This document shows positions 4,604-32,479 of a stretch of 33,927 nt of DNA, piece after piece. A model generated the notes under the pieces. It was not told the origin of the DNA. It saw only the letters and a list, made by a program, of their open reading frames with translations, and searched no databases. Source of the stretch: Coemansia sp. RSA 922. Taxonomy: Eukaryota; Kickxellomycota; Kickxellomycetes; Kickxellales; Kickxellaceae. The DNA lies in NCBI GenBank assembly GCA_027577415.1, contig JANBQS010000115.1, forward strand, positions 1-33,927. The letters are read 5' to 3'. Every line of letters begins with the position of its first letter. Positions within the stretch are counted from its first letter, which is position 1. The position numbers and the translations under genes are program-made.

Positions 4604-5385
4604 ATTAGGGATATTCTCAGCGACTTTTACTCAAATACGATTACCACCCACACTGAGTCCACGCACCAAGTCCACTCTGATGATGACTACGAGCCCTGCA
4701 ACTACCCATTCTACCGCAAGCTACGTCTTTCCGCGTACATCAACCAGCAGCAGGCAGACGCGCGTTTGAAGCGCAACATGATCCGAAAGTTTGGCAGGCG
4801 ACTGGCCATGGTCTGCGGCAATTGGTCTGCATCAATGGCTTGCTTCCATGCACCTATTCGGGGTCGCGGCTGGCGCAAAAGTTCAAGAAATTCGGCTTTC
4901 CGACGTACCTGTTTGACGAGTTCTGTACGTCCAAGACCTGTCCCGGATGCGATGGCGACCTCCACAAGCGCAAGGTAATTGACAACACCCGGCCTTATCG
5001 GCGTTGGCAAAGACGTCTTACGTTCTGTCACGGCCAGCTTCAGTGTTCAAACTGTCTCGTCAAGCAGCTCGATGATGAACGTAATGTCGTCTACAAGCCT
5101 CGCCTGTATAATCGCAACCTGGCTGCCACTCTGAACTTCCGGCGCATCATCCAGTACTTTATTAGAAAGGGTGACATTCCTCCAGTGTTCAAGCGCCCTA
5201 CTCGTGTGGTTGCTGCTATGCCGACGCCTATGTCTGCAGATGCCAGAGGCCGCGGTGCTGCTAGGGCTGCTGTGGCTGTTACTGCGGCACCTGAGCATAC
5301 TTTTTCGATGACGTTGCGTTCTGCTCATAGGAGTGACTTGGCTTCTGATGTGCAGCCTTTGTCCAAGCGTCCTCGTCGTGGTTAA
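4604..5385 (+). pseudogene. truncated, frameshifted Fanzor (eukaryotic TnpB-like nuclease)
   Basis: C-terminal half of a Fanzor protein, the eukaryotic relative of transposon-encoded TnpB, an RNA-guided RuvC-type nuclease. The first frame (4604 to about 4870) carries FYRKLRLSAYINQQQADARL and then GNWSAS and HAPIRGRG, matching the Fanzor Gly-Asn-Trp-Ser-Ala block. A frameshift near 4850-4880 moves the match to the next frame, which continues FGFPTYLFDEF, CTSKTCPGCDG, a second zinc pair LQCSNC, and NRNLAATLNFR. The last block is the RuvC-III region, normally Asn-Arg-Asp-Leu-Ala-Ala; here AAC (Asn) replaces the catalytic Asp. The tail ends in basic SKRPRRG, a likely nuclear localisation signal. 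The N-terminal half and RuvC-I are missing. An acceptor-like ATTCTCAG at 4613-4620 may mark a lost intron. The copy is dead as a nuclease. Confidence 0.75.
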
Positions 5386-5480: not shown

Positions 5481-5781
5481 CCTCTTTGGCGTTTATTCAT
5501 TTTCAGAATTGAATTTCCCCAGTAACGTCTCTGGGAATGATTAAATTTTCCAAATTTTGCACAGTTCACTTGACCTCAATAGAGTCAAATGATGCGCGTG
5601 CGACATGCATGGTTGACATCCCAATAGTAAGTGTCAAGCATGTCACTTGGTCACACTGAGGGGGGGTTGTTTCAAATTTTTCACAAACAGCTTTTTCTCG
5701 AGAATAGAAAATGAGCTCGGCACATTTTTCTCATCCGCATACTTCATGTTTATCTTTTTTAATGTTCACTATTTACTTAAA

Positions 5782-8703: not shown

Positions 8704-9427
8704 GCTTTCGTCTGAATGACCGTAATAAATTTTCTGGCATATTTGACATTTTTGGCTAAATGCAACTCTCCATAGCCCCAGCTCTATAACTAAAGCCTGT
8801 TAGCCTCGCCTTCCTTGTTAACACTACAGCAACATATTTCCTATTGAGCTATTCCCTGACCTACTTCCAAACTCACAAGTAATCCTACTCTGGCATATAT
8901 GAGCTGCTTTACTGACACTGAGCGCCATTATATGGGTCTGTAACATGCTCAACAATGGAAGCTCACGAGTATGGTCTGCAGTTTTTTGGGTCTACATTTG
9001 TCCAGATCAAGAAGATCCAAATATAGCTGGTAGTTGGTGTAGCCAATATCATAAGGGAAATAGTTCGAAACACATGGCCGATATTTTCTTGGCCGACTCT
9101 ATTTGTCACGCAGAATTAGTCAAGATCACTGGATCGGCGGTTTGGACAAGGGTCTGCGGCTTAGCCGCAGTAGAACGTTGTTATTTAAAAAGAGTTTATT
9201 GTTGTTTACAAAATAGAACGCTTTATCTTCTCTTTTATTTATTGAATTACATTTTAGTATCACACTATTGGCAAAATTTGCGGACACATGCAACATGCAC
9301 AGGATGCATTGCTGATGGTGTCACGGATACCTGCAATACATACATGGTGTCATCAAGCGACATTCTATTCTTTGGCTTTCATTCCTATGCTTTTTCATTT
9401 CCCTTATTTTTTTTTATCATATTGGCG

Positions 9428-11114
9428 ATGTCTTCGATATCTCTATTTCAGTATCTTCCTCACCACGTAATTCAGCTTATTATCAACTATGTTTTGGGCC
9501 GTATTCGCGCGGATTCTGAGGGAGCCATCACTGGGAAAGAACAGCGCAAGGCTAGGCTAAAACCGCTGCTGGGGGTCTACAGCAACTGTCGTGCCATAGC
9601 TCTTCCACTTTACTGCTCAGACTTTTCTATTGACTTTGTTAGCGTTCAACCTGGCGGATTTAAAGAGCGTCGCCTATTTGCAAATAGCCCAGATACTAGC
9701 TCTCCGGTGCACCGTCACTTGGCCTCTGTCCTTAATATTATTATCGACGAAGGGGATGATTACACGGGCGAGTCACTAAAACGGCTGTCGGTTGTGCCTT
9801 ACAATGGCTATGCATTTCCAATGGCTCGTATGGTAACTCTCTTCTTTGCTTCTAATATCTTTGACGGAAATAGTGTGCCCAGTGCTATTTTTGTTAAGAG
9901 CAACATCACGGCGTTTGTTCGGCGGATCCGGCAGATGGTGCCCAAAGCTACCAAAATTGTAGTGACGTATATTCCCCATTGTAGCCAGGCCAAAAGCACT
10001 CGTTATATTGGCACTTTTGTTTCCCAGCTCTTTCAGCTATCCTCTCATGTCATGTACTTACACCTGTTCGGGACAGACGTGCCCATACGACTGCAGCTAG
10101 ATATAATTCGCAACCTAGTCTTTGTATTTTAAGGTCGATGGCTATACGTGTCCATCAATTCAGTTGGTGCGGCATAATGCACCAACGTTGCAAACCCTGC
10201 TGCTTGTATCTGATTGTGTCGCCGACCTAGCCAGCCTCATACAGAGCCCAGATGGCAGTTACATCACGTACCCACACCTACGCGACCTAGAGTTGCTTGA
10301 TGAATCTGATGACTATACACCAGAGCGAGTAGCCGTTAAGGGAGTTGTACCGTTTCCTTGTCTTCAGCGTATTTACTTGAATAGCTGTTATCCGTTTGGC
10401 GACGACGTACTTTTCAGGGGCAATTCCAGTACCCTTAAGCACTTGGAGTTGTTTATGAGCGACCTGCTGGTTTCCATTATTATCGACCACAACATTTTTA
10501 CGCCGACCAGTCACCCAAATTTGCGGCGAGTCGTAACCAAGTATCCACCAGAGGAATACCCAAGTCAATTCGATACGCCTGCTGATGCTTTGCAGTTTAT
10601 GCTTAGCATCTGTCCAGGAACACCGGTGCGAGAGGTCGAGGGAGATCATTCTAGTTCCGAGCTTGTCCCAGCACTCTTATCGACTTTGAATTATGCCTTC
10701 ATCCGAGTTCTGACATTGCCTTTCCTCTGCCCGGAGCTCCTGGATATTGTTGCTTTGGTTAGAGCATTACCAACTCTATCTACTCTGCGTACTTCGCCTC
10801 CAATTTTTGGGTTTATTCCAAATCGTGTCGATATGGATGATCTACCCACGTACATTACGGCGACTTACGCTCCGGATGGTAAAAAATTGCAATACTGGAA
10901 TCATCAGCCAGCCCCGCCCCTATATCGTGCAGAGAATGCTACGTGTATGCTATTGTTGGCGCTGGCGTACCCCGATTATACCTATATTGGTATACTTGGA
11001 GGCGAAGCTAAAGGATTCAGAGAAGAGCTAGAGGCCGCTGTAGCTTCGAATATGTTCAAGCCGTATGCCTCACGTTTACAGGATTTTGTGCGTCGCAGTG
11101 TGGAATACTTTTGA
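9428..11114 (+). pseudogene. F-box/LRR-like gene with one-base frameshift
   Basis: The first part (ATG 9428 to TAA 10130-10132) starts MSSISLFQYLPHHVIQLIIN, a family-typical F-box-like helix, and runs through RIRQMVPKATKIVV and HVMYLHLFGTD. Its frame stops at NLVFVF. The homologous protein continues at once in the next frame (KVDGYTCPSIQLVRHNAPTL) to TGA at 11112-11114. Removing one T from the TTTT run at 10127-10130 would fuse the two into a protein of about 560 residues reading NLVFVFKVDGY. Each half is otherwise free of stops and LRR-like (YPHLRDLELLD, LKHLELF). The break is therefore recent, or an assembly error in a homopolymer. The frame is open upstream to 8945, but that part has no resemblance to the family. 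Confidence 0.65.
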
Positions 11115-11345
11115 CTCTCTCTAGTGACACTAATATACTATCTATGTGCTCTATCTTTTGCTACATGCGACAGGTAAATCGAAGGTGACAACTTGAGATT
11201 AAAGAACATTAACGGCTTTATTTGCCCTAAGGTTTGGCCTTATGACACGAGAGACATTCAATAATTACTGGGAGAATATATTTATTGCTTAAGTTGCCGT
11301 AATGTTTCCAGAGGTAAAGACTGCATATAATGCTCCTACAGAATT

Positions 11346-12026
11346 CTAATACAATGTTACCATTGACATTAACAGGTTTATGATAGCCATATCGCGGTAC
11401 GTGTCCAAGGCAGGTGGCTTATCTCCAGTGGTCTTGGCCGCGGCGATGTCCCACACTGCAAGCTGCACCTTCTGCTTGAAGAGCGGGTCTTTCTCAAACT
11501 CGCGCATTTCAGTAGGCGAGAGTGGGCCACCCCACATCGGGATTGTCACCCGGATGGGGGCTTCCAATATCTCGCGCATAATGACTCCAATGTTCTTAGA
11601 AATGATGCTCACAAGGCCCTCAGGCGCCATGCCCCCAAGGTAACGCTTGGCCAAAATGTTAGACTCAACCAGCTCGCTTGTCTTGTTAGAGAACCCGAGC
11701 TTGCGCACAATGACATCATCGACCACATCGCTATCAAAGGTGTTGATCGTGTTTCTGTCATATCCACTCCAGATGAACTCTACTCCGTCCCCGATTTTAT
11801 AATTGTCATATGGAGGTATGGTTACCGTGATCTTACCGGCATTGAGAATTAGCTCGGATAATGTGGTATCTTCGTCAGCACTATCTATCTTGGAAAGGTT
11901 GGCAACTCGAAGCGCATGGTCCAGCTGTGGCATGTTACCACTGATGTGCTCCTTCTTGCCGAAAATTTCTAGAAGCTCAAACAGCTTGGACAAGCCTTGC
12001 TCGGGAGTCATGGTAGTGGTAGACAT
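11346..12026 (-). CDS. hypothetical protein, 226 residues
   Basis: Soluble 226-residue protein from ATG at 12026 (MSTTTMTPEQGLSKLFELLE). The frame is uninterrupted with balanced composition and no signal peptide or membrane helix. Features visible include an N-terminal helical segment, KITVTIPPYDNYKIGDGVEF, and IRVTIPMWGGPLSPTE. A TATA-like TATATAAAAG on the minus strand lies at about 12078-12088, roughly 55 bases before the ATG, which supports a real promoter and this start. I do not recognise a family. It stands alone, with AT-rich intergenic DNA on both sides. Confidence 0.65.
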   Translation of the reverse strand: MSTTTMTPEQGLSKLFELLEIFGKKEHISGNMPQLDHALRVANLSKIDSADEDTTLSELILNAGKITVTIPPYDNYKIGDGVEFIWSGYDRNTINTFDSDVVDDVIVRKLGFSNKTSELVESNILAKRYLGGMAPEGLVSIISKNIGVIMREILEAPIRVTIPMWGGPLSPTEMREFEKDPLFKQKVQLAVWDIAAAKTTGDKPPALDTYRDMAIINLLMSMVTLY

Positions 12027-12378: not shown

Positions 12379-13261
12379 ATTGTGTGGTCACATAAAATAA
12401 TGAATTCATGAGTACGTAAAGTGAAAAGGAGACAAGAGGAAGAGACTAGCCTCTTTTCAGCAGTTGAAACTTGCTCACACACATATTAGAGATCAAAGTT
12501 GGATAATTGGATTACTAATACGCACGACTTGTTGATTGCTGTTGGCTTTTGTGTACTTTCACATGCCCTGTACAGCTTAGGCGGTGTTTTACTTTTGGCA
12601 CATTGGTAAGACCAGTGTGGGCAGGAGTACCCGTGGCTAACACAACCCGTGGCAATAGGGCTAATACTCTACTACATGCTTTTTGCCCGTCTATTTTGTT
12701 TTCTCGGGCTGTTCAAAAATGGATGACGCTCTCTCATGTCATACAACTGCTCTGCTGTTCTGTGTGAAATAGAATGTAGATATCAGACAATTCAGCACGT
12801 AAGGCACACATCAAAGAACGCAAGCTTTATAAATGAAAGAAGATTATTATTCATGATGACAAAACAAGAAAGTTGAGTAAAAAAAAATAATAAGAATGAA
12901 GATATTCCATAACTCTAATAGAATGAACAGGTGTAAGATAAGCCAAGCCCCGTTTAGTGCTTGGTTGCTATAAACTATTCAACTAGTTAGAGTGGCAAAT
13001 TAGCTGCTTCAAATTTTCTCCAACAACTAGCATATTCAACAGCTACGTAAAACCAAGATATAATCCAGTAGATGTTAGGGTACTCGTTGGAACAGTCAAA
13101 GTGGGCTGTAGCAATTACGGAGTAGGCCAGTATACATATCCTGCTTCTCTGTCAGAAAGAGAAGGAAATAGTAAAGTTTTCTTTATTAACCTCATTTGTT
13201 TATTTGATACTCTCCTAAGCGGAGCTTGTATCTATTAGACAAATATTAATAAGCAAACTTC
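12379..13261. other. AT-rich intergenic stretch, nothing recognised
   Basis: Only short open frames without protein-like features on either strand. The last part is the 3' flank of the minus-strand gene that ends at 13262. Confidence 0.5.
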
Positions 13262-13606
13262 TTATATCGCTTCAACGTGGGCATACTTGGTTATTAGCTT
13301 CTCAATGTCAAGCATTATATCCCCTGTACCATAGGTCACACTCATAGCAAGGGTTAGCTCCTCCTCACTTCCAAAGAATATATAAACATGACGCTCTGTA
13401 TCGATTTCGGCGCTTTCATAACGACTAATGCTTGCTGTAATGCCATTACCCCAAATTATTGGGCATGATGGGTAAATTTCATTCTTGGCTTGTGTAGCTA
13501 GAGAACCTTTCGCCTGATCAATGGTGTTTCCCTTTCTAGCAACATGCCCTTTAATCTTTAGGTCACCACCCACTTCGTAGGTAACGGCATAGTAATAATA
13601 AGTCAT
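13262..13606 (-). CDS. small orphan protein, 114 residues
   Basis: The ATG at 13606 gives MTYYYYAVTYEVGGDLKIKG, a soluble 114-residue protein with no signal or membrane segment. The frame extends upstream to 13789, but that part is translated leader and crosses the TATA box. TATAAAAAG on the minus strand at 13710-13718, about 105 bases before the ATG, supports this start. Alternating strand-like stretches (HVYIFFGSEEELTLAMSV) suggest a compact beta-rich fold. No family recognised. It resembles the other small orphan genes here in size and promoter layout only. Confidence 0.6.
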   Translation of the reverse strand: MTYYYYAVTYEVGGDLKIKGHVARKGNTIDQAKGSLATQAKNEIYPSCPIIWGNGITASISRYESAEIDTERHVYIFFGSEEELTLAMSVTYGTGDIMLDIEKLITKYAHVEAI

Positions 13607-13709
13607 GGTTGGAACAGCTATAGCGAGCAAGAAAGTGTGTGTTGGATTGATAAGAATGTGGTGTGTTTGGTAGCTATCTTGAAAAAGGCCAAGAAGTGGT
13701 CGCAGCCGG

Positions 13710-13718
13710 CTTTTTATA
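13710..13718 (-). promoter_or_regulatory. TATA box of the 114-residue gene
   Basis: TATAAAAAG on the minus strand about 105 bases upstream of the ATG at 13606. Confidence 0.55.
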
Positions 13719-13926
13719 GCAGAGAAAAAGAGAAAATCCCCCCGTTTGCTGTAGGAAAAAAACCAGAGTGGGTAGGCTGTGCAGTACAAAATTTTTTCAG
13801 TGAATGTGAAAGAGCCAAAAATAAGTTGGGAAAGGCCAGTTTTTTCTTTACATCAAAGGACATACGTCATGGCCTAATTGAATTGCAGGACTTTCAAAGT
13901 GCTGTTTCTTTTTATAGCAGCTTGAT

Positions 13927-14266
13927 ATGTGCATTCTGCTTCCCTTCGTCGTCATCAACAGCAATGAAGCTAGAAAATGACATCATTGACATACTTTGCC
14001 TCAAAGGACAAATGTGCCAGGTTGTATATTGCAATAATAATATCTGTCGTCATGTTTCGCATTCAACTGTTCTATGTACACTTTCCTTTTTTTTGCCGAA
14101 AGCGGCTAAGCAGAACAATGGGGAGGGCTATTTTCCTTGTTTCAAAGAGCATGCGTTATAGGCAAGTTTTCCGAATTGGCATGTCCATTTTCTGCTTTTA
14201 TGTGCATTCTGCTCTTCTTCCTTGTCACCAACTGTGAAAGAGCCACCAAATGACATCATTATTTTT
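13927..14266 (+). repeat. diverged direct duplication
   Basis: TATGTGCATTCTGCT followed about 45 bases later by AAATGACATCATT occurs near 13927-13988 and again near 14199-14262, with similar intervening sequence. A further match (ACTTTGCCTCA) follows each unit at different distances, so the second unit carries an insertion. No gene was recognised across 13800-14640. Confidence 0.45.
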
Positions 14267-14661
14267 CCTTTTTCTTTGAAACAAAGAAGCAGGCAATATA
14301 TAGGTGACTTGCACTTTGCCTCAGAGCTGGCTAAGGTCCACACTCGACATTTTCTTCTGCTTCTAGGGATGTTCGCCCCTGCTGGGTTGCAGCTAGAGCT
14401 GAATTATTTGCCATCGTTATTCTCCTTCCTTGTTTATAAAAAATAAGATTTTGTTGCCACACCTGCCCTAACTAGTTCTTGGCTAGGGTCGACAACGCCT
14501 TTGTTAGTTAGCTATTATTTGACCTATGGAGCTTGGAGTCGTTTCCAGACAAAAAATGAATGTGATAAAACAACATAGCTATAATGGCGCTAGGCCCCAT
14601 GTGTCTGAGGACGACTTGTCATTTTCCACTTCCTCGTAGTCAAAGTTTCTGAAGCCGCACC

Positions 14662-16070
14662 CTACTTACGTTTCTTTAAAGGACCAACGCTCTGCTCAGT
14701 CCTGACTGCCGTAGGAGACCCAGTTGTTCCCAGAGCCACAAGTGCATTCATTCTGTGCTGCTCCACTATGTGTATAGGCTCCGCCCACAATCTCTTCCTC
14801 AAGGTCGTCATGCCAGATAAGTGTGGGTCATGTAGTCCAGTGAGTCGCATTGATCGCGTCTTCCAAACTTGACCCAAGCCCCATGGTACCTCGGGTCAAG
14901 AAAAAAGAACGCTGTGCATATCAACCACCAGCCGACGGGGTCATTCATCTTGTGATGTCGTCATCAAATTGGTACACAGTGTCCAAGTGAGAGCGCTCTT
15001 AGTTGGCGGCAATGAGCAGGTCAGATGAATTCCACGACTTGATGGGAGGACGGCAGGAATATCTGTTTGGGCATGCATTTCGCTCTGCCTGGTTAACATA
15101 AAATGTACCCAACATGCTTATAGTGTATAGCAGACCTTTCATATCGTCGGAAAAAGTGTCTTGGCCCTGTGCGTGCACCCTTCTGTGTTTATTAAGTGTC
15201 TGGGGGATCTAACAGACGCTCCAAGCTGCGAGTGGATTGGGAGAGCATCATCTCAGGCACCTCAGCTTTGGTTGCATCGGGACTACCACCAGCATAGGAG
15301 GCATAGCCAAACCCTTTCAAAAAACCCCTTTACTCCGTCTGTCGTCTCCTGGTACTGGATGGCGAGATCGCTAATATTGCTGTGGACAATTTTGTACTTG
15401 ACGGACACTGCATTGAGTGCTGCCATAGCGTTGGTGATAGCAATAACAATCGTATTCAGGTCATCAGCCGCAGATATCATCTTTTCTGTCCACTCCAACA
15501 CAGTGCGCCTGTGCAGGCAAACACAGCTAATTTTTGGCATTATTGTAAATGCTCAAGTAGTAGAGTCTGCAACAGATGAATTTCCTCGATTAATGTACAC
15601 TGGCCCAGTGCCCAGAAAATACGACAATCTGCCGCCAAACTCCCTGGACTTGTGAAACATATCGTTTTATGGCATAGTTGACCGAGCTTCTGAGCACGTC
15701 ACTGGTAAAGGCGCTGACTGGAGCTGTCTACACATCCTTGATTAAGTATCCCGGAGTATCCAGCTTCTCAAGGCTGGTTGACACGGCAAAAGTGCTTGGC
15801 GTGGCATCCGAAGAGGCATTCTGCAGCCCCAACGCATTGTTTGCTGTAGTATGTGTGGTGTTCCACTTGGCTCGTACTCTCGTCCATCTCAGGAACATCG
15901 ATCTCAAGGTAAGAAACACCGCTGTCTCTTTTAACAACAAATTGAATAAACGGCTCAAATTCAAGGCAGTCGACAGGGCACAACGACCAATTAATAGGCT
16001 GCGAGATAAATGCCTGATGCCCCTCGGCACTGCAAAAGTTTTCACCAGCTCAGGCACTGTCATCCTCTGT
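14662..16070 (-). pseudogene. relic of a FunK1-like protein kinase gene
   Basis: Minus-strand fragments in several frames. The clearest (about 15540 to 15192) reads VKYKIVHSNISDLAIQYQET and then VKG, which resembles the FunK1 catalytic loop His-Arg-Asp-Ile-Ser with Arg-Asp changed to Ser-Asn. After a frameshift it continues FGYASYAGG and VPEMMLSQSTRSLERL, similar to the kinase's post-DFD region. Upstream, 15768-15983 carries another open piece (EFEPFIQFVVKRDSG). Downstream, 14662-14877 may hold the C-terminus. Multiple frameshifts and stops make it non-functional. FunK1 kinases are a fungal-specific expanded family. The assignment is by resemblance only. Confidence 0.45.
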
Positions 16071-16977: not shown

Positions 16978-17167
16978 CTGCTTGCGTTATAAGCTAATTG
17001 GAAACAAAATAGTTAATTTACAAGCGCCACTGGTGCCACAAGTTGGCTAATAACCACCACTAAGTATTGTATAAATTATAACATGTATTAATATCCTACC
17101 TATTCTAAATTTCTAGTTGCCTATTAAATATATCCAAATAAATATGGATAAAAACTTGTTGTCACAG

Positions 17168-21340: not shown

Positions 21341-24300
21341 TTAAAAATGATACGATTTGGTCTTTGCGTCGTATGTGGCGCGAGATAGCGGGTCGAGATA
21401 GACGCGCTCTTCTTGTTCAGGAGTAAATGGAGGAGCGCTCTTGACTTGCACCAGCGAATGGTTGCCAGCAAATGTGTCTTGCCAGTAGCGGTAAGACTGG
21501 GTCTCACGAAGACCCACGCGAGCGTTGTAATCGTTGAGCTGCTCCTCAGTCAGCGTAGCCAGCAAATAATCCGGGTGAACGACTAGCAGCTCAGCGCCGA
21601 CTTGTCCAAAGCCAAAGGACTTTAGCAAGGCGGCTTTGATCTTTGGTGTATGGATAGGGCGCGACGGATAGACAATAAACTCGTGCTTGAGGTTACTGTC
21701 AATGTTATCGGCGTTGCGGTTTCCAGGCACAATGCCAGTACGCAAACTCTGCAGAGCGCCGTTGAGCATCCACGCAGCAGCGGGGCCCTTTGGATGACCA
21801 GTCAGATGCTTTTGGCATACGGCTGGTACAGCAAAGCCCGGAGTACGACCAAGCTTGTGTAGCTGTGCGTTGAGGACCGTAGACTCGTTCCGATCGTTGG
21901 CATGAGTACCCGTACCGTGGAATGAAGCCAAGCCAATGTCGTCGGGCGTCAGACCCCAGGCAGCCAAAGCGCCACGCAGCGGCGATATATGGTCAGGACA
22001 AGTACGCCAGAACTCAGTACCCCATGCGTCCAGTACCTGGTTGCGCTTAGCGGCGGCCATAACCGGGATCATGCTCTCGTCCATGTCAGGATGCGGGTCG
22101 GCGTGCTCCTCGGCCTCCCAGGCATCGACAGCTCTTAGACCCCGATTGATCTGGCGGCGGCGATAAGAAATGTCGAGCAAAGCGCTTGTAGCGCCAGTGT
22201 CAGCTTCGCGTGCGGTAGTCAGTACGCCCATACCGGGAGCCGGCAGCGAGGATCCTTGCTTATCCGTGGCCGTAGCAGTGTGCGCGAGAATGGCGTAGAT
22301 AGGAGCTCCATACTCGATTGCAGCAGCAGCGGACATGAGCACGGCAATGCCAGCGCCTTGTGCCTCGACAAAGCCCGTGCGCGTAGTAGTACAAGGACGG
22401 CTCATCTCAGACGGCTCTCGGCCACAAGCAGCCTCTTCGACAGCATTACTGGTAGCGCCCATCTGCGCAAACTCGTAGCTCCCCTCCTCGACAAAGCCTT
22501 CGAATCCACCAGCAAGCATAACACGAGCCTTGCCAGAGCGAATGGTATCAGCAGCAATGTCAAACGAGAGCACTGATGTAGCACACCCGCCAGTTGGAAT
22601 CTTGATAGGTCCAGACGCCGAGAGCAGCAGCATGTTGATCCAAGCAGCCGTTGTGTTGGCAAACGTCTCTTGCAAAACGTCGCTCTGCACTTGCTTGTCC
22701 ATTAGGCGCTTGTGGTACATGGCGCGAATAGCGTGGATACCGCCAGCACCCGCACCCACCGATGTGCCGACTTGAGAGACGTGGAAGTAGCGGTAGAGCT
22801 CGTAGGGGTCGGTGATTCCGGAGCGGATCAGAGCCTCGGCAGTAGCGACAAGGGCGAAGCATGTGACAAGATCTACTTGGTCGACGACGTCGGGCGGAAT
22901 GCCAAAGCGCACAGGGTCCCAGCCCGTAGGCAGCTGAGCGCCAACCAGGCGGTCAAAGCGCAGGGCCTTGGGGACCATTAGCACGGCGCCCTTGCGGAGC
23001 TTAACAGACCACGAGCCTCCATTGTCGGAGTTGGCCCAGGTGTCGGCCAAGTCTCCGTTGCGCAGCTTGAATTGCGCAGCCTCATCAGCACTGGCCTCAA
23101 AGGGCGGCAAGTCATGCTCGATCAGCAGTTCGCGGAAGATAGGCACGACAGCAGGATCGTTTTCGGGATTCTCAAGCATGGCGGACTCTAACAGGCGGAT
23201 ACCAGTATGAGCCAGAATGTACTCTTCGTAGCGAGCCTTGACGTCCATGTCACGAATGGGCTCACCCAATGCGGCGTCAACCCAGCCAGTGTACTCTGCG
23301 CTGCTTACATGCTTGATCAGGCCCATGATCCACGCCAGCTCAATACAGCCTTCGAGCGAAAACTCGCCATACGCTTCCATCTCCCAGCGCGTCTCGGCAT
23401 TACCCAGAGGACTGACCTCGCCGTAGCCAGTGACGACAACGACCTTGTCCAAGTTGGCCATTCCTTGCAAGTGCTGCAGGTGCTGGAGCTGGTCGACCGA
23501 TTTTAATGTCGGGTACTCTTGGCGATGGTCGAACAGCGGGCGGAAGTCATGGTCCATGTGCAAAATGCACACGCGGTGGCCAAGCGCAGTAGCGATATCT
23601 GCGCCGGCAGAGGCAGCAACATTCTTGCGGCGCGAGACGTCGGCGACCAGCGCTTTGCGTGCATTGGTGACTGCGTCGTTGACTTTGGCTATGCGCTGCA
23701 GACCGCCGTTGAGATCGGCCCACACTGGCGCGTGCAGGGCCAGTGCGGCAATGCGAGGGTGTAAAAGAGCGACGATATTCAGCGCCATTTCGTTGGTCGA
23801 AAATGTGCGTGCTCCGACGCCTTCGGCCACCTCCAGCGCCTCAGCAATGGCGTTGTTAGCAGCCATTAGGCCCGTACCACGCGTCCAGCCAATGACAGCG
23901 CCAGCTACTGAGACGTGATCGCCCCAGGCTTCAGATGCCCAGCGATTGAAAGCCGTCTCCAGCGCAGCCTTGCTTTCACCGTAGAGGCCGTCGTGGCCAA
24001 AGACGCCATGGTTGGGCGACAGCGGCAGCACAGCCAGCGTGGGACGTGTGTTGAGTTCCATAGCCTGCTTGGTGCGCTTAATCTCGCCGATAAGGCGCAA
24101 AACATTCGTCAGCATGATGCGCACGCTCAGCTCAGACCGCCCGTCTAGCTGCGACACATCGCGCCCGTAGTCACCAATAGCAGCAAACGGTAACACATAG
24201 TCCAGGTCCCATTGCAATGTCTGGAACACATGCGATACAAGCGAGCGTACGTCAGCCGCTGAGCCTTGGTTGAACGGTAGGGCGATCAGCTCTGACCCGC

Positions 24301-27300
24301 GTGAACCGTGCTCCTTGTACATACTCTCGTAGAACTGCATAGTCTTTTTGCTGTAGCTCGACGTCGTAGCAATGACCCTGGCACCGCCTGCCAGCAGCCG
24401 CTCTACCACTGTCGCAGCTATTGACCCGCGACTGCACCCTGTAACCAGCGCTGTCGTCCCAGCAAACGCCGACGACCCGCTGGTGCTTAGCTCCGTCAGG
24501 CACGCATAGTACTCGCTTGAGGGCTCTGCTGCGTACACCCACGCGTGCGCCGCCGTCTTGTGCCGCAGGTGCAGCAAGGGCCGGTGCTCAGGGTTACCAG
24601 TCGTTGGCTCGGCTTGCATGTGCGCTACGTACTCTGCCATCGTCGGCTCATCGAGTCGCGGTGCCTCGCGATATGTGACACTGCCAACGTCGCCCACCGA
24701 CGTCTCAGGCTGTGTTGGCACAGCTGCTATTCTGACTACTGGCGCCTGGCCCAGCGCCTGGGTGCACGCTGCGAGCATGCGCTGCGCAAGCTCGTAAGCC
24801 CGGGTCACCGATGGATCGTCGCCAGCGCTGCTGCCAAGCGTCGAGCACAGCCCATTGAGCAGCTGGACAAGCAAGTCATCTGAGCGGTTGGCCAGCATCA
24901 GCATCCGAGCTTGTTCCTCGGTCTCGATCGCGGTCTCATCGGTCCGAGTCAAAACTTGCCCAATCCACTGTAGGGCGTCCTCTCGCGCCCAGTTCCAGTA
25001 CGAGTCGAACACGCGAGCCTTGCGGGCGTCAAACTTTGGCTGCACGCCCGCCAAAAACTCTGGTCCAAGCTCATCAGCCAGCGCATCCAGCTGCTGCTGT
25101 GCTTGCTGCCCAGTGGCCGCAGACTTTTCGGCTAGGCGGTACCCGGCACGCATATCCAAGCCCAGATACTGTGCATACGCCTCGACCTGCTGCAGCGCCA
25201 ATGCTCGCTGTGCTGCTTGTGCCTTGTCAAACTCTTGGCTGTTGATGACCACTGCCTGCTTGCCCTGCTGGTGCGCACCACTGGACTTTGTCGAATTACT
25301 TGAGCCGAGTACTATGCCGCACGCTTGGGCGTAGGCTTGCACGACGCTGGCAATCCATGCATTCGCATCTTGCTCGCTGCCCAGCCGCGCTCCAGGCTCC
25401 ATCGTCAGCGCCAGCAGCAGAACGGCATCCTGCTGGTGCGCACGTCCAATCCCATGCTCAGACTCGAGGCGACGCCTGACTGCCGACTGCGTCACACCGC
25501 CAGGCATCTTGGTGCTGAACAGCCGAGCGACCTGCGCCGTTGTGTGCTTGCCCAGCGCTCGCACAGCACTACCGCCGCTGCTGCTTAGGCCGGCTGACAG
25601 CTCGTGCAAGGTAATCTCGTCTGGCCGGTCTGGGATGGGTCCACTGGGGCTGAGGTTAAACTCTTTGAGCAAGTCGCCCAGAATCTCGTTCTGCAGCGTC
25701 GATTTGCCACCGGTCAGATCCCTGACCGAGCGGTCTGCTGAGACTTCCGACAGGGGCCGCTTGAGCTTTTGTGCAATCACCGTGCGGATGACAAACACGC
25801 TCTTCAGAGGCACGTCTGGCACGTCTGCAGCACCCTCTACAGCTGTCGTCGCCGACTCGGAGCTTGACACCACCGACTCTGGGGCCGAATCTTTCTCGCC
25901 GGAGACAGAGTCAGCACGCGACGCTGTTGCAGTTTCAGTCTGCGACACAGAGCCACTGCTCTCGTACGCGGCCGTTTCTGGCAGGGACTCTGGCAACGCC
26001 GGTCGGAAGTTGACCTCGTCCTCATCGCGGAAGACGTGCAGCGTGGACACTTGGTTCTCAAGGCCTGCCAGCTTGACCGAACCCTCAGCCATGCGGCATA
26101 GCGTGGCGCTGGGGCCAATCTCGATAATGCGCTCGACCTTGTACTCTTTCAGCAGTCGGTCCTGCGCCTCGATCCAGCGCACGGGCGACGCAAACTGGTA
26201 TGCCAGGAGCTCCTCCACCAAGACTCGTCCCAGGCGGGCGCGCTCGACGTCGGTCATCATTCCTTCTGCCGGCCAGCGACTGAGCTCCAGAGCTGCCACG
26301 GGAGATCCCGTCTGGTCGACCATGAGCTGGAAGTACTCGGGCGTTACGGCGTACGGCACGGCAGTCAGATTGGGGATGTACCGGTTGCAGAGCAGCGAGC
26401 AGTCGTCGTCAGTCGGCCGGACCATTGCGTTGATGCACATGCGGAAAAAGTCGGCTCCTGGCAGCAGGTGGCTCGAGTGGAAGGGCACGTCGATGCCGGG
26501 GATCGGGATAGTCGACTTTGTGCGCTTCACTTCGTTGCCACACCCGCCGCGAGCAACAAACGCCTCGACAATCGGCGCTACTCGGCACGATGCGCCGCCA
26601 CCTGGGCTGATTCCCAGGCGCGACATCTCGTCGAGCACGCAGCCGAGCATGGCCAGCTGGGCCCGCGTCCCAGCCACGACATACTGGTAGCCGCGCACGT
26701 TGTAGTTGACGACCTCCAGCAGGCCGCCGCTCTGATTCAGCCTGCGGATCAGATCAATGGTGGCAGCCAAGGCGCCCTCGTCGAACGTCTTGTGCACACG
26801 CGACGGATTGGCAGCGACCATGGCAAAGTCGGAGCGGTACTGGGCGTCGCGCGTGACAGTCGACTGCATGGTCATGCCGCGGATGAAGGTGATGTCGATG
26901 ATGTCCTCCAGCGTCATGACGCCATACGCCGCCAGCGCGCCGTACTCGCCCAGCGAGTGGCCGGTCAGAATGGCCGTCTCGTCGAACAGGCCGCGCGACC
27001 GCAGATCGTTCGCAATGGCGACGTCAAAGAGCATGATCGACGGCTGAGCAAACTGCGTGGCGTTGAGGAGACCGGTCGGCGACCGGAAAGTGTAGCTGTG
27101 TGCCGTCTCCGTGACTTCGGGGAACAGCGGCACGTACTTGTAGTCGCCGGGCTCGCCAGACTCGCCGTAGACGCGCTGCTGGAACTGCATGTAATTGCGC
27201 CGGATTTTAGCGCCAGCCAGCCCGCCAAAGCGCACAGTGTACTCGCGCGGGTTCTTGCGGATGATGTCCAGGATCGAGAACCCGAACCGCTCGCGCATGT

Positions 27301-30300
27301 GGCGGTCGGCGCGGTCGTACGTGCGCCGCACTGCGTCCGACGTCTCGTACAGGTCAAAGCCCATGCCCTGCTCTTGCGAGCCCTGGCCGGTGAACATGTA
27401 CGCTGTGCGCTGCGGCGCCACCTCGCACGTGGCCTCGAGCACCGTGGCGCCCGTCGTCCGGCTGCGCGCCACTGCCTCGACGACGAGCCGCCCGCTGCGC
27501 ATGCCCACGTGCGCGAGCTGCACGTCGACCTGGTCGCCGGCGTGCACAGGCCCTGCAAACTGCGCCGAGTAGCGCTTTAGCCGGTGCGGGTTGCCATTGG
27601 CGACATTGTGCTCGATGAAGCGGCGAACAGTCGCGCTGGCCCACTGGTCTGCCACTATGGCCTGCTGTCCGAGCTGCGCCAAGTCCGCAACGTACTCGTT
27701 GGTGCTGCGTGGATTGTAGCTGCCCATTGCTGCTGCGCTGCGCTGGGTGCTCTGAGGCGCCCATGCCACCAGGCCCGACGCCAGGCAGTACGCCCGGTTT
27801 CTGCCGCTGCGGTCCTCGTCAAACAAGCTGGCTGCTGGCTCGCTAACGACGCTCGCACGCTGGGCCAGGTACTCGACTACCGGGTTGCCGCACGATGCGC
27901 CATCTGCATAGTCGACATTGGCAATGTGCGTGTACTCGTACAGAGCAGTCTTGAGATGCACACTGCCCGTCGTCACAGCCTGCGTAAATCCAGCCCCGCC
28001 TAGCTTGTACTCGGAGCGGAGGCGGAACTCGAGTATGCTGCCAATTTGCAGCCTTGCGGCAAGCGCAGCGTCGCTGGTGTGTGTCGGGAGATACCACTCC
28101 TTTGCCTCGAGCACGGCAATGTCGTCGGCAGACTGGATAGTCAGCCTGGCCAACGGCTCGTCGACATGTCGGAACTCAAACCCAGATGGCGCAGCTCCAG
28201 GGCTGGCGAATGTGCTGGTCACTAGTGCAACTGGCTTGCCATCACGCTGCAAAGACGAGCGCAGCACGACTGTTGTGACGCCGCTGCTGCTGCAATCCTC
28301 TTTGGCTGACGACGACACCTCGATGACTCTGGTAGTGCATCCGACAGCATGGCCGATCTGGACTGGCTCAGCTCCTGGCGTCAGCTCAACGTGGCTCGTA
28401 GTCTGCCGCAATGTCAGCAGCCCGCAGTGGACACGACGCGAGACCAGTGCTTGGGTTATACTACGCGAGGCTAGCACAGCCATATACTCCATCGGCACAT
28501 CCCGCGCCTGCTCGCTGTTGGGCGGATATGCTGGCAAGTCGGTGCTCGTCGTGCGGCAGTAATCAGCCACGCTCTCTTTGGTTACGACGGTTTCAGCAGT
28601 CACAAACTCCAACTGGTCATCATCAATGACATGAAGGCTTTCCTCAGAGTCTTTGGGCTCGGATGTCATCAGACACATGTCCGCGTAAAAGTCGCGTACT
28701 CGAGCCTCGCGCTCGCACATCAGCTCATGGATAGGCGCCTGAGGTGTCTGCTGCGGGCGGTATTGGTAGTCAAAGCACAACGCGCGCTGGATGTGCCCGT
28801 TGCTGTGGAAAATGCAGAGCGATATCACGCCGCCATCCTCCTCGGCTGTGATTTCCAATTCCTTGGCCCCGTCAGCACTGCGAATCTCCACTGACGCCGG
28901 CACTTGTGCATTACGGCCCTCGCTGGCGTCGGTTAGCAGCTCAATAATCACTCGCCGACCAGGTCGGGGCCGCATGACGTCACGGACATAGTTGCGCACG
29001 CGACGAGGCCCCTGCGCTATCCAAGCGCTGGTCAGCAGCGCACGAAGCCAGCTTGGGCTGGGACCAGCAATGGCGCTGAGCCAAGCATCAAGCCCAGGCA
29101 TCTCAGAGTACCCTGCTTCCACAGGCAGCTGGTACGTACGCTCCGACTCGGTGCAAGTGACCACCACGCTGCTGGGAAGCGGAGGAGCAAGCGTCCTGAC
29201 CGGTGACGGCGCTGGGTGCTCGACATACTCTACCAGTGGGAGTGGAACATCGGCGGGAGCTGTTGCTGCAAGCGCAGAGGTAATCCCGCTGTAAGTGGCA
29301 TCGAGGATCTGCTTGATCGGCTCGTTAGCAAGCGTGGAGTACCGCACCGACACTGGACCCTGGCGTACTAGCACGCGCTGCGCGTCCTGCCCAACCACAG
29401 TGGCAAGGTTCTCGCTCTGCCACCACGAGTCGCGTAGGAGATAGTCGGCAAAGTCGGCATCCATGCTGGCGATAAAGGGCAATGGGCGACGGTCAGTCAT
29501 CCACAGGCGACACATGTTGAAAAAGTACTGGATGTCCTCCGACGAGACAAGAAGAGTCGACGCCTTGGGGATGGCACGCAGTACGTAAGCCGCTTCATCG
29601 AGCACCACGTCAAAGAGGGGCATCGAGGCATCCTCAACAGTAATGCTGGGCGTAAACGGGCTCTCACTAGTCAACAGGCGCATATTCGTACGATCAACAA
29701 ACTTGGCCGCAAACTGGCGGTAGCTGTTGTCGACCCAGCGCTGCTCGTGCTTGACGTATAGGAGCTCAACCAGGCGGCTAATAACCTCGGCGTAGGTCAT
29801 GTCTTGCAAGTCCGCTACGCGCCCATCTGCCTTGCGGCCGAACCACGGTCTCATAAAGTCGCTGTTGAGGCGAGCAATGATTTCGTCCTTTTGAGCCAAC
29901 AACAGCGGCAGCTGCTTGTCCTTGGGCTTGCTGAACACAGTCTCGCTCAGGTGCTTGCAGAGTAGCGCAGCACGTGTTGCTAGAACATGCGTCGGCGTGC
30001 CATCGGCCGCCAAAATCGAAACTACGCCGCAGCCACTCTCGACGCCGCCGTTATTATTGTCGTCTGTAAACAAGCACTCCACGTTGTACGGGTCCATGCC
30101 CTTGGCAGCTACAATCAATTGCTTGACGGCGTCATCGGCGCGGGCCTCCAGCGCAACCATAGCGCGCGAGCCCAGCATAATACCGTCAAACGGCATGTGC
30201 GCTCGGCCGACATCTTGGCCCCAGGCGCCCGTCACATAGGGCAGCGCACTGTCGGCGTCGCCAAAACCAGAGTTGGCAACCAAGACTACGTTGCGGTGCT

Positions 30301-32479
30301 GACGGATCTGCTTGTACATCTGCATAATTGGCATATGGAACTCCTCGAATGAGTGTGCGCCGCCAGTCCGGCCGCCAGTCCACTGCATGACGATGACTGC
30401 TGAGGGATTAGCCTGGGCAATATCCAAGGTCTGCTGTATCTGCGCTACCGTCGTAGGCTTGAGCGCAAAGTAGCAAAGACCCGCCGCTTGCAGGCTGCAG
30501 ATGAGCTGAGAGGCCTGAGTCACTGGCGGTATGGCGTCGTCGATGCATACTCCGATAATGGGCAGATGCTCTTGCTGGCGCAAGTCAGCAATCACTGGCG
30601 CTTGCCACGCAGCGAGACCTGCCAGCGAGCAGCTCAGCGCAATGCCGTGCCCTACTGGCTGCAAGTCAGCGAGCTGAGTGACCAAGCTGCGCAGCTCGTC
30701 TTTGGTGCGCACTGAGCTGACAGCCAACTCGGCGAGGTACCCGGCGTGGGCAACGGCGGCGACAAAGTTTACATTGGCTGTGGTTGGCTGAACTCCAGCG
30801 ACTACCACGGCAGGGTGGCCTAGCGCGCGGCTGAGTGGCGTGTCAAGATGTAGCTGGCCTTTGCCGCTTGGCGTGGCGAGACGCACGAGCCGCGGTCCAT
30901 ATACCTGAGCCCAGTTGCTGCCAGCGTCCATTGTTGACGAGGCAGAGGAGACAACAGCAGATACCAGCGAGGTACCGCTACCCTGAGTAACCTGTCTAGT
31001 AATGTCGCTCAGGTGGCTGTCGGCTCCACTAAAGTCGACAATGCGCGTCGTGTCAGGGCGGCCAACAGCTAGTGGCCAGTTTACCCGGCGCGTGTAGACG
31101 CTCTCGACCAGAATGCGAGCCAAGTCTGCGCCAGATTGAGTAACCTCCTGGCCGTCACAGCTGGAGCGCAGAGGGACTAGTAACTGGCTCTGCTCGTCAT
31201 CGTCAGCTGTGGTAGTATTATAGTTCCAGCCCTTGGCCGCAGCTACCGCCATATGCTGGTCGACAACCACAGCCAAGTGCTCGCAGTAAAGCGGCACACT
31301 TGCCGAGCGCACATAGCTGACTTGGACTTCGGGCTTGCGCGCATGGAAGGGCACACGTGACTGGTCGGCTCCAGCAGGATTCGCCTTGCTGCGAACGACT
31401 CTAACGAACCGATAAATCTCGCTGATGTGGCCGGAGCTGATAAATTCGTCGTCTGTGTTGATAGCCGATAGATGTATCTTGGCCGCGGGGCTGTCACGAA
31501 AGTGTGAGTTGTACTTGCTCAATACTGAGTCGACGATGTACTGAGGCGCTCCTCGCACTTTGATGACAGTCGTCGCAACACCCTCGTGCTGCTGAGCTTC
31601 GGCAACTGCGCTTGGGTGCAGCGTGGACTCGGGTGCGATATGCAAGGGCAAGCAGCCGGCCAGCATCAGAGTGCCAAGAGCTCGCTTGGAAGCCGAGACG
31701 AACTGCTCATCGCTGGTGGCAGATGCAACCGCGGCAGCAACAACCATGCCTTGACCATATCCGGTAACAGCTACACACAAACAAAAAACATTGAAGGCAG
31801 CATTAGTATCAGTAATAAAAAAAAGTGTAAACATATCCGGCAAAATGCACATGCAATAAATAAGCATAATTTTTTTACCTTTGAAATGGCACACGTAATC
31901 ACTCATAGTCACGCCTGATAGCCGACAATGCACCAACACTCGCACGAGCTGCACAAGACCAGACAGTGGCGTAGCCACTGGTGGGGATTCAAGGTATGTG
32001 GCATTGTCAGCCGGCTCAGAGTTGTCTTGTGCTGCAAGCCATGCGGCCACATTCAAGCCATGAGGGTAAAAGTGAGCAAACATGATATCCTGAGCCTCGA
32101 TAGCAAGAAACTGCGAAAGCTGGTCTAGGAATTCAGCCGTCAGCGAACGATGAACGCTGGCCAGGTAGCGCAACTCGGCCAGGCACTGCGACCCGCCGGC
32201 GCTGTGTAGAGCATCTCCAAATATGGCCAAGCTGTTGCAATGGCTTGCTGTGTCGAGAGCAGCGGCAATGTTGGCGGCAGAGGCATCGGTAGCACCGCGC
32301 TGCCGGCAGAACTCGATGAACTGTGTGCGCGGATGAATGTCGTCAGAGTAGGTGACAAGTGTAGTAGCAAACTCGTTGGCCAGGCGCTGGGAATCTTCCA
32401 CCAAACTGGGAGCAACTTCTAAACGGATAGTCGTAGCATGACCGAGACTGATCTCAATGGATTGCAGATAATCCACCAT
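21341..32479 (-). CDS. FAS-like type I megasynthase (fused beta-alpha), AT and DH sites lost, no PPT domain
   Basis: Two exons (32479-31879 and 31770-21341) encode 3676 residues in the fungal FAS order, beta then alpha. Acetyltransferase region 1 to ~500: the GHSQG nucleophile motif reads GYGQG, with Gly206 for Ser. Enoyl reductase ~510-820: QWTGGRTGG and His673 retained. Dehydratase region ~1180-1640: the GDxNPIH signature is absent around 1549-1570. Malonyl/palmitoyl transferase from ~1658: GQGSQEQG, Ser1806 in GHSLGEY, His in VPFHSS. ACP ~2180-2350: Ser2224 in GGKSTLQNEIL. Ketoreductase from ~2634: Tyr2797 and Lys2801. Ketosynthase ~2975-3590: Cys3263, His3485, His3526. It stops after YLDPLSRATYD, where fungal alpha chains continue into the phosphopantetheine transferase. 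The ATG at 32479 has A at -3; the frame begins at a TTG at 32500. Expected to be cytosolic. It may be a paralogue beside a normal FAS. Confidence 0.93.
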   Translation of the reverse strand: MVDYLQSIEISLGHATTIRLEVAPSLVEDSQRLANEFATTLVTYSDDIHPRTQFIEFCRQRGATDASAANIAAALDTASHCNSLAIFGDALHSAGGSQCLAELRYLASVHRSLTAEFLDQLSQFLAIEAQDIMFAHFYPHGLNVAAWLAAQDNSEPADNATYLESPPVATPLSGLVQLVRVLVHCRLSGVTMSDYVCHFKGKKIMLIYCMCILPDMFTLFFITDTNAAFNVFCLCVAVTGYGQGMVVAAAVASATSDEQFVSASKRALGTLMLAGCLPLHIAPESTLHPSAVAEAQQHEGVATTVIKVRGAPQYIVDSVLSKYNSHFRDSPAAKIHLSAINTDDEFISSGHISEIYRFVRVVRSKANPAGADQSRVPFHARKPEVQVSYVRSASVPLYCEHLAVVVDQHMAVAAAKGWNYNTTTADDDEQSQLLVPLRSSCDGQEVTQSGADLARILVESVYTRRVNWPLAVGRPDTTRIVDFSGADSHLSDITRQVTQGSGTSLVSAVVSSASSTMDAGSNWAQVYGPRLVRLATPSGKGQLHLDTPLSRALGHPAVVVAGVQPTTANVNFVAAVAHAGYLAELAVSSVRTKDELRSLVTQLADLQPVGHGIALSCSLAGLAAWQAPVIADLRQQEHLPIIGVCIDDAIPPVTQASQLICSLQAAGLCYFALKPTTVAQIQQTLDIAQANPSAVIVMQWTGGRTGGAHSFEEFHMPIMQMYKQIRQHRNVVLVANSGFGDADSALPYVTGAWGQDVGRAHMPFDGIMLGSRAMVALEARADDAVKQLIVAAKGMDPYNVECLFTDDNNNGGVESGCGVVSILAADGTPTHVLATRAALLCKHLSETVFSKPKDKQLPLLLAQKDEIIARLNSDFMRPWFGRKADGRVADLQDMTYAEVISRLVELLYVKHEQRWVDNSYRQFAAKFVDRTNMRLLTSESPFTPSITVEDASMPLFDVVLDEAAYVLRAIPKASTLLVSSEDIQYFFNMCRLWMTDRRPLPFIASMDADFADYLLRDSWWQSENLATVVGQDAQRVLVRQGPVSVRYSTLANEPIKQILDATYSGITSALAATAPADVPLPLVEYVEHPAPSPVRTLAPPLPSSVVVTCTESERTYQLPVEAGYSEMPGLDAWLSAIAGPSPSWLRALLTSAWIAQGPRRVRNYVRDVMRPRPGRRVIIELLTDASEGRNAQVPASVEIRSADGAKELEITAEEDGGVISLCIFHSNGHIQRALCFDYQYRPQQTPQAPIHELMCEREARVRDFYADMCLMTSEPKDSEESLHVIDDDQLEFVTAETVVTKESVADYCRTTSTDLPAYPPNSEQARDVPMEYMAVLASRSITQALVSRRVHCGLLTLRQTTSHVELTPGAEPVQIGHAVGCTTRVIEVSSSAKEDCSSSGVTTVVLRSSLQRDGKPVALVTSTFASPGAAPSGFEFRHVDEPLARLTIQSADDIAVLEAKEWYLPTHTSDAALAARLQIGSILEFRLRSEYKLGGAGFTQAVTTGSVHLKTALYEYTHIANVDYADGASCGNPVVEYLAQRASVVSEPAASLFDEDRSGRNRAYCLASGLVAWAPQSTQRSAAAMGSYNPRSTNEYVADLAQLGQQAIVADQWASATVRRFIEHNVANGNPHRLKRYSAQFAGPVHAGDQVDVQLAHVGMRSGRLVVEAVARSRTTGATVLEATCEVAPQRTAYMFTGQGSQEQGMGFDLYETSDAVRRTYDRADRHMRERFGFSILDIIRKNPREYTVRFGGLAGAKIRRNYMQFQQRVYGESGEPGDYKYVPLFPEVTETAHSYTFRSPTGLLNATQFAQPSIMLFDVAIANDLRSRGLFDETAILTGHSLGEYGALAAYGVMTLEDIIDITFIRGMTMQSTVTRDAQYRSDFAMVAANPSRVHKTFDEGALAATIDLIRRLNQSGGLLEVVNYNVRGYQYVVAGTRAQLAMLGCVLDEMSRLGISPGGGASCRVAPIVEAFVARGGCGNEVKRTKSTIPIPGIDVPFHSSHLLPGADFFRMCINAMVRPTDDDCSLLCNRYIPNLTAVPYAVTPEYFQLMVDQTGSPVAALELSRWPAEGMMTDVERARLGRVLVEELLAYQFASPVRWIEAQDRLLKEYKVERIIEIGPSATLCRMAEGSVKLAGLENQVSTLHVFRDEDEVNFRPALPESLPETAAYESSGSVSQTETATASRADSVSGEKDSAPESVVSSSESATTAVEGAADVPDVPLKSVFVIRTVIAQKLKRPLSEVSADRSVRDLTGGKSTLQNEILGDLLKEFNLSPSGPIPDRPDEITLHELSAGLSSSGGSAVRALGKHTTAQVARLFSTKMPGGVTQSAVRRRLESEHGIGRAHQQDAVLLLALTMEPGARLGSEQDANAWIASVVQAYAQACGIVLGSSNSTKSSGAHQQGKQAVVINSQEFDKAQAAQRALALQQVEAYAQYLGLDMRAGYRLAEKSAATGQQAQQQLDALADELGPEFLAGVQPKFDARKARVFDSYWNWAREDALQWIGQVLTRTDETAIETEEQARMLMLANRSDDLLVQLLNGLCSTLGSSAGDDPSVTRAYELAQRMLAACTQALGQAPVVRIAAVPTQPETSVGDVGSVTYREAPRLDEPTMAEYVAHMQAEPTTGNPEHRPLLHLRHKTAAHAWVYAAEPSSEYYACLTELSTSGSSAFAGTTALVTGCSRGSIAATVVERLLAGGARVIATTSSYSKKTMQFYESMYKEHGSRGSELIALPFNQGSAADVRSLVSHVFQTLQWDLDYVLPFAAIGDYGRDVSQLDGRSELSVRIMLTNVLRLIGEIKRTKQAMELNTRPTLAVLPLSPNHGVFGHDGLYGESKAALETAFNRWASEAWGDHVSVAGAVIGWTRGTGLMAANNAIAEALEVAEGVGARTFSTNEMALNIVALLHPRIAALALHAPVWADLNGGLQRIAKVNDAVTNARKALVADVSRRKNVAASAGADIATALGHRVCILHMDHDFRPLFDHRQEYPTLKSVDQLQHLQHLQGMANLDKVVVVTGYGEVSPLGNAETRWEMEAYGEFSLEGCIELAWIMGLIKHVSSAEYTGWVDAALGEPIRDMDVKARYEEYILAHTGIRLLESAMLENPENDPAVVPIFRELLIEHDLPPFEASADEAAQFKLRNGDLADTWANSDNGGSWSVKLRKGAVLMVPKALRFDRLVGAQLPTGWDPVRFGIPPDVVDQVDLVTCFALVATAEALIRSGITDPYELYRYFHVSQVGTSVGAGAGGIHAIRAMYHKRLMDKQVQSDVLQETFANTTAAWINMLLLSASGPIKIPTGGCATSVLSFDIAADTIRSGKARVMLAGGFEGFVEEGSYEFAQMGATSNAVEEAACGREPSEMSRPCTTTRTGFVEAQGAGIAVLMSAAAAIEYGAPIYAILAHTATATDKQGSSLPAPGMGVLTTAREADTGATSALLDISYRRRQINRGLRAVDAWEAEEHADPHPDMDESMIPVMAAAKRNQVLDAWGTEFWRTCPDHISPLRGALAAWGLTPDDIGLASFHGTGTHANDRNESTVLNAQLHKLGRTPGFAVPAVCQKHLTGHPKGPAAAWMLNGALQSLRTGIVPGNRNADNIDSNLKHEFIVYPSRPIHTPKIKAALLKSFGFGQVGAELLVVHPDYLLATLTEEQLNDYNARVGLRETQSYRYWQDTFAGNHSLVQVKSAPPFTPEQEERVYLDPLSRATYDAKTKSYHF
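31771..31878 (-). other. intron of the megasynthase gene
   Basis: On the minus strand the donor is AAAG|GTAAAA and the acceptor TGTGTAG|CTGTT, with branch-like TACTAAT at 31802-31808. The length is 108 bases, a multiple of three without an in-frame stop, so the frame reads through it. Removal is supported because splicing joins HFK to AVTGYGQG, matching the corresponding FAS segment (LKGATGHSQG), whereas the intron translates to unrelated hydrophobic residues. Confidence 0.88.

Follow-up and report, generated by a model that had tools for sequence, protein, structure and literature searches.

A Coemansia fatty acid synthase paralogue that has lost DH, ER and AT active sites and keeps those of MPT, ACP, KR and KS: a possible reducing polyketide or polyol synthase

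The window (the whole stretch of DNA analysed, 33,927 nucleotides) is contig C115 of an assembly of Coemansia sp. RSA 922 that comprises 20.4 Mb in 960 contigs. It carries a gene for a fungal type I fatty acid synthase (FAS) paralogue, here called FAS-X (Table 1). The mechanical ORF runs from 32500 to 21341 with the ATG at 32479 and the stop at 21341, and the interval first reported for this locus is therefore the ATG-to-stop span. The 11-kb stop-free frame of the preliminary description is real, but it is not one exon; an intron had been overlooked, and the syntenic copy on contig C9 has an in-frame stop within the same 108-bp GT..AG stretch. A single uninterrupted exon is ruled out by this intron. 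The spliced length is 3719 residues less 7 ahead of the ATG and 36 for the intron, giving 3676, which is exactly the length of the nearest database protein (P0002; Coemansia, annotated 'fatty acid synthase alpha subunit Lsd1', 99% identity to the KR-KS query). The top database matches to this query are Coemansia (Kickxellales) proteins. By Pfam the FAS-X protein (P0001) has FAS architecture from AT to KS, in the domain order AT-ER-DH-MPT-ACP-KR-KS, with no match to PF01648 (PPT).

Table 1. Coordinates of FAS-X, its regions and a separate PPTase gene (window positions unless a contig is given; site numbers are those of yeast).
Feature	Coordinates	Strand	Details
FAS-X gene, ATG to stop	21341..32479	-	one intron; encodes a single-chain fungal type I FAS paralogue of 3676 aa that lacks a PPT domain
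Intron, 108 bp	31771..31878	-	GT..AG, TACTAAT; upstream of the AT motif; in frame and stop-free in the C115 copy
N-terminal and AT/SAT region	31001..32479	-	active site lost: S274 to G (codon 31756-31754), PFHS to PLYC
ER region	29291..31003	-	H740 to A (codon 30358-30356)
DH region	27431..28663	-	D1559 to S (27721-27719), H1564 to S (27706-27704)
MPT	26246..27433	-	GHSLGEY Ser (26956-26954), PFHS His and malonyl-binding Arg retained; QFTQ changed to QFAQ, specific to the clade
ACP domain (Pfam stretch)	25307..25819	-	GGKSTLQ with phosphopantetheine Ser (25702-25700)
KR	23456..24583	-	Tyr839 (23983-23981) and Lys kept
KS	21503..23458	-	catalytic Cys (22585-22583), Lys and the two His retained
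KS gate	22745..22747	-	M1251 to A, codon 22747-22745; fixed in clade X
Free-standing PPTase like the FAS PPT domain	C78:34547-34906	-	

No biosynthetic or tailoring neighbour was recognised by Pfam among the 10 window ORFs scanned; nothing but peptidase families, in one ORF, matched above cut-off. Window positions 4822-5385 match the Cas12f1-like TNB domain PF07282 weakly (E 8e-5, under the curated cut-off), lie within sequence that recurs on several contigs at 84-91% identity and possibly represent a TnpB/Fanzor-like mobile element. A 581-aa ORF at 5647-7392 has no Pfam match and belongs to a DNA family with many repeats (67-71%), several of them in a row on C49. The stretches 9262-12000 and 12500-16000 are repeated at approximately 82-89% on several contigs and are transposon-like; synteny with C9 stops near 17154. 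From there to 33927 (approximately 17 kb) C115 and C9 are collinear at 92-96%.

Active sites were read by alignment to yeast FAS and in its numbering, the numbers of the KS Cys and His being those that we take to be the yeast ones. The KS gate number rests on an equal-length match (205 residues) to the yeast chain, and the AT, ER and DH site numbering follows the catalytic residues mutated in yeast FAS, as given in the available text of PMC7260205. The selective retention that had been noticed in FAS-X is confirmed. The MPT Ser, Arg and His, the ACP Ser, the KR Tyr and Lys and the KS Cys, two His and Lys are all present, and both AT and DH are dead as proposed, each through the two changes in Table 1. 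The list of dead sites was nevertheless incomplete, since the loss at ER had been missed.

We built a KR-KS tree of 141 tips, comprising the best 120 of 655 database matches, P0001 and 20 copies from the same genome. P0001, the C9 copy and 24 of the database proteins, all of Coemansia and among these best 120 of 655, form a clade (X) with support 1.0. Its sister in this tree is clade B (support for X+B 0.914), which holds most own-genome copies together with genes of Martensiomyces, Dipsacomyces and Kickxella; lineages H1 and H2 fall outside X+B. A phylogeny of the KS and MPT domains had been suggested as a check on the preliminary description, and in six single-domain trees X was monophyletic each time (6/6, support 0.999-1.0). 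The sister relation of X and B is not firm, as the ER, DH and MPT trees place X inside B and the AT tree does not recover X+B as a clade.

Catalytic residues were counted in a hand-picked set of 70 sequences (22 near-full-length X members, 29 B, 8 H2, 7 H1 and 4 outgroup). The DH pair was complete in none of the 22 X members (D in 12, H in one, never both); D and H were both present in all 48 non-X sequences. ER H740 was retained in two X members (P0016 and P0018). The AT Ser was replaced by Gly in 6 of the 21 X members with letters at this position, and the AT His was absent from the same six; the AT loss first described thus holds for this gene, but its restriction to one subclade had been missed. 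MPT, ACP, KR and KS catalytic residues were retained in 22/22. Clade B has both DH residues in 29/29, ER H740 in 28/29 (the exception, P0074, reads GGRGGSYS) and the AT Ser in all 27 sequences with letters there. The FAS-X pattern is common to a clade and is no private lesion. In the simplest order of events, DH would have been lost first, ER in most lines, and finally AT, in the subclade to which this genome belongs. Among the same 70 sequences, the H2-type FAS P0113 of Coemansia reversa has three tandem ACP domains and the other 69 have one (motif count).

Clade X is also marked by changes in the domains that it keeps. The KS gate position (yeast M1251) is Ala in 22/22 X members and in 1/48 others, the remaining 47 having Val, Leu, Met or Ile. 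The residue before the KS catalytic Cys is Gly in 22/22 (Ala in 48/48 others), the KS motif HGTST has become HGT[GA]T in 22/22 (Ser in 48/48 others), and MPT QFTQ has become QFAQ in 22/22 (Thr in 48/48 others). These clade-fixed changes support the earlier view of a 'retooled' enzyme. According to the available text of PMC5353594, M1251 of yeast FAS gates the inner KS acyl channel and the yeast MPT takes acyl chains of varied length. Ala at the gate could open the channel to hydroxylated chains.

Retention was scored domain by domain at positions invariant in 19 reference FAS (H1, H2 and outgroup). X kept 78/99 such positions in MPT (0.79), 28/37 in ACP (0.76), 81/114 in KR (0.71) and 193/253 in KS (0.76), versus 10/35 in the N-terminal/AT region (0.29), 65/219 in ER (0.30) and 14/53 in DH (0.26), in agreement with the sharp divergence of the N-terminal half originally described. 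The corresponding values for B were 75/99, 30/37, 90/114 and 211/253 (0.76-0.83) versus 23/35 (0.66), 127/219 (0.58) and 29/53 (0.55). X and B are therefore roughly equal in MPT, ACP, KR and KS, and in AT, ER and DH retention in X is approximately half that of B. Shared across the clade and contrasted between domains in this way, the residue pattern is more than chance. The X stems in the domain trees are 0.45, 0.42 and 0.55 long for AT, ER and DH versus 0.32, 0.23 and 0.18 for MPT, KR and KS. At matched KS distance (0.15-0.30), AT, ER and DH divergence was 0.53, 0.51 and 0.55 in X versus 0.39, 0.29 and 0.46 in B; MPT (0.34 versus 0.34) and KR (0.37 versus 0.33) differed little. Against a clean split, ACP (0.37 in X versus 0.27 in B) and the helical region (0.55 versus 0.37) also diverged more in X. 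Further, H2 keeps its DH residues yet has a DH divergence of 0.52, near the 0.55 of X, which indicates that divergence alone is no proof of lost function. Because these ACP, helical and H2 values, and the dN/dS of one B pair given below, blur the split, the case rests mainly on the lost residues and the ER divergence.

Short-term selection was estimated by a Nei-Gojobori count on the DNA of this assembly for one syntenic FAS-X pair, C115 and C9; the dN/dS by domain that had been proposed across orthologues was thus computed per domain for a single pair within one assembly. Neither copy contained a stop over the 3422 codons compared, and dN/dS was 0.120 overall (0.10-0.15), with 0.170 from AT to DH (meander included) and 0.082 from MPT to KS; single regions ranged from 0.040 (ACP region) and 0.049 (KS) to 0.235 (DH). 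Constraint persists in the dead domains (omega 0.12-0.24). Relaxed selection over the whole gene, which the preliminary description had named as evidence against itself, was looked for and not found. Four clade-B pairs gave 0.115-0.168 overall and 0.127-0.191 from AT to DH, and one of them had the same N-to-C contrast as X (0.169 to 0.093). Recently, then, the dead half has been constrained like a live one, and over deep history it diverged faster. The short-term values show only that the whole FAS-X protein is maintained, and they do not single out X.

FAS-X is not the sole FAS of its genome. KR-KS matches were found on 22 contigs (C2, C5, C9, C18, C34, C78, C97, C111, C115, C117, C153, C156, C182, C189, C481, C485, C496, C544, C548, C705, C753 and C907), those on C34 and C153 being partial or broken, and this count removes the other objection foreseen, that the gene might be the only FAS. 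Such a large type I FAS expansion in one 20-Mb assembly consists mostly of members of one paralogue clade of Kickxellaceae whose sites are of intact type. Sixteen own-genome matches cover almost all of the 2886-residue query. Of the long clade-B copies, 14 in number, all have ER GGHHS and the DH D..H motif, which reads DGNIIH in three; AT GHS is seen in 13, C496 ending near there. In the KR-KS tree C753 is H1 and C2 is H2. A 692-bp stretch is 97% identical between C753:11835-12526 and C2:96332-97023, longer matches of these FAS paralogues being at 69-71%, which suggests gene conversion.

Both alleles (two haplotypes) and recent duplicates were considered for the C115-C9 pair. The collinearity over approximately 17 kb and the similar dS of two clade-B pairs (0.13-0.14) speak for haplotypes. 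Against them, the C2 FAS had no further copy in the assembly apart from the one 692-bp stretch, and the four RPB1-type matches are confined to three contigs, which may or may not correspond to three different polymerases.

The missing PPT domain is not a peculiarity of FAS-X. PF01648 is likewise not listed for the Coemansia FAS proteins among the best 120 of 655 matches, and separate PPTase genes occur in Kickxellales. A search with the PPTase, confined by length limits to short proteins, fused forms being outside its scope, yielded relatives from Coemansia, Martensiomyces, Kickxella, Linderina and Mycoemilia, the Mycoemilia one marked partial; a relative in Basidiobolus was weaker (48%). PF01648 is listed for FAS proteins of Ramicandelaber, Furculomyces and Smittium. 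On this distribution the PPT was likely split from FAS in Kickxellales.

By descent FAS-X is a fungal type I FAS, with the full domain order and high similarity over both halves. Judged by its lost AT, ER and DH residues and the lack of its own PPT, it is a FAS homologue and should not be described as a functioning fatty acid synthase. Among structure matches its KS is closest to fungal FAS alpha chains, with PKS/FabF chains ranking far lower (the trees contained no PKS), so that an iterative PKS by KS kinship was rejected. In its residues FAS-X would fit an iterative PKS-like way of working, with KS, acyl transferase and ACP active and beta-processing incomplete.

On balance we lean towards FAS-X being a working, secondarily simplified KS-MPT-KR barrel that makes beta-hydroxy or polyketide-like chains, a predicted product class that follows from the retained catalytic residues; KS, MPT, ACP and KR probably suffice for beta-hydroxyacyl chains. 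A separate PPTase would arm the ACP, and the one on C78 may serve FAS-X. MPT would load malonyl and, in the AT-dead subclade, also the acyl starter; with AT dead the starter should come via MPT or, alternatively, be made by KS through malonyl decarboxylation. KS, its gate residue reduced to Ala, would then condense and KR reduce to beta-hydroxyacyl, and the hydroxyl would stay with DH and ER gone. Release by MPT as beta-hydroxyacyl-CoA or further elongation to a partly reduced polyketide or polyol chain could follow. We infer barrel formation, turnover, priming route, product and release alike. Either H1564A or H740A alone abolishes the activity of yeast FAS (PMC7260205, available text), which implies that a DH-dead barrel needs further changes for turnover. 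That no tailoring neighbour was recognised among the window ORFs scanned also speaks against this reading. The fuller account, in which a Coemansia FAS paralogue became a reducing polyketide or polyol synthase by losing DH, mostly ER and then, in one subclade, AT, with the KS gate opened, MPT changed and the PPTase acting in trans, is put forward tentatively, at a little under an even chance.

The constraint on the dead domains is explained as well by an auxiliary role, in which FAS-X chains co-assemble with intact FAS in mixed barrels and shift the ratio of KS/MPT/KR to DH/ER/AT per dome; neighbours would do the missing steps in trans, and the product would be an ordinary or altered fatty acid. 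Purifying selection close to that on paralogues with intact-type sites is expected if surfaces must fit a barrel, and there are many paralogues in the same genome. However, identity between FAS-X and the 14 other long own-genome matches is just 48-50%, which lowers the likelihood of mixed barrels; the AT, ER and DH of FAS-X have diverged beyond B at equal KS distance, and the clade-fixed KS and MPT changes near substrate sites exceed the needs of co-assembly. We regard this role as unlikely, though deserving of serious consideration. Less probable again is a single turn without iteration, MPT taking a cellular acyl-CoA, one malonyl being added and reduced, and the 3-hydroxyacyl handed back. 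It draws on the same residue set as the working barrel, and the residue evidence is the same for one turn as for several; MPT can carry acyl chains (PMC5353594, in the text available), and AT would be dispensable, which fits its loss in one subclade. A decaying pseudogene would account for three lost active sites and is very improbable, given two open copies, a dN/dS of 0.12, a dead half (0.17) within the range of B pairs (0.13-0.19) and a clade present in many Coemansia. An assembly artefact, a chimera of FAS with something else, can practically be dismissed despite the fragmented assembly, as the same gene occurs in other Coemansia strains (99% and 96% identity in the KR-KS region) and all six domain trees put it in one clade. 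The original interpretation is partly supported: 'better than a pseudogene' well, 'retooled' by the clade-fixed KS and MPT changes; its product and auxiliary role are graded here as readings only.

Fungal FAS is viewed as a sealed saturated-fatty-acid machine, from which other products had to be engineered. The staged site loss (of DH from all members examined, of ER from most and of AT from one subclade), together with the KS gate change, would if true offer a natural test case for the passage from FAS to a polyketide-type enzyme, and a lineage whose predicted PKS are FAS-type would have its own polyketide machine. No report of a DH/ER/AT-dead FAS or of FAS expansion in Coemansia was found by title or abstract start in the open-licence literature. 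In the available text of Tabima et al. (2020; PMC7466969), the 'PKS' predicted in zygomycetes, Basidiobolus excepted, fall in the fungal FAS clade, and the set includes Kickxellales such as Linderina and Martensiomyces; a 2023 review (PMC10386755, likewise from the text available) credits Coemansia and Linderina with higher numbers of predicted PKS than the other Kickxellales. The predictions of PMC7466969 may include FAS-X-like genes, and such genes may account for some 'PKS' predictions in Kickxellales.

With yeast FAS1/FAS2 (PDB 2uv8, 4v58) FAS-X shares the domain order and the KS, MPT, ACP and KR residues; it differs in being one chain rather than alpha plus beta, in lacking AT, ER and DH active sites and the C-terminal PPT, and in having Ala for M1251 at the gate. 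HexA/HexB of aflatoxin biosynthesis is a complete FAS dedicated to secondary metabolism that makes a hexanoyl starter; like it, FAS-X is a duplicated fungal FAS, proposed here to have left housekeeping, but unlike it FAS-X has lost DH, ER and AT residues. The closest relatives in the KR-KS tree, those of clade B (C5, C18, C544 and others), are likewise single-chain, without PPT and expanded, but they keep DH, ER and AT residues and have KS Ala-Cys with a bulky gate in 28/29. The models in the available text of PMC7466969 were defined by profile hits for domains (AT and/or KS only), whereas FAS-X is defined by catalytic-residue loss. In engineered yeast FAS (PMC5353594, as far as its available text describes it) chain fate was altered via the KS gate and transferases, as proposed for FAS-X; the latter is natural, has Ala at the gate, the opposite of Trp, and keeps the MPT Arg.
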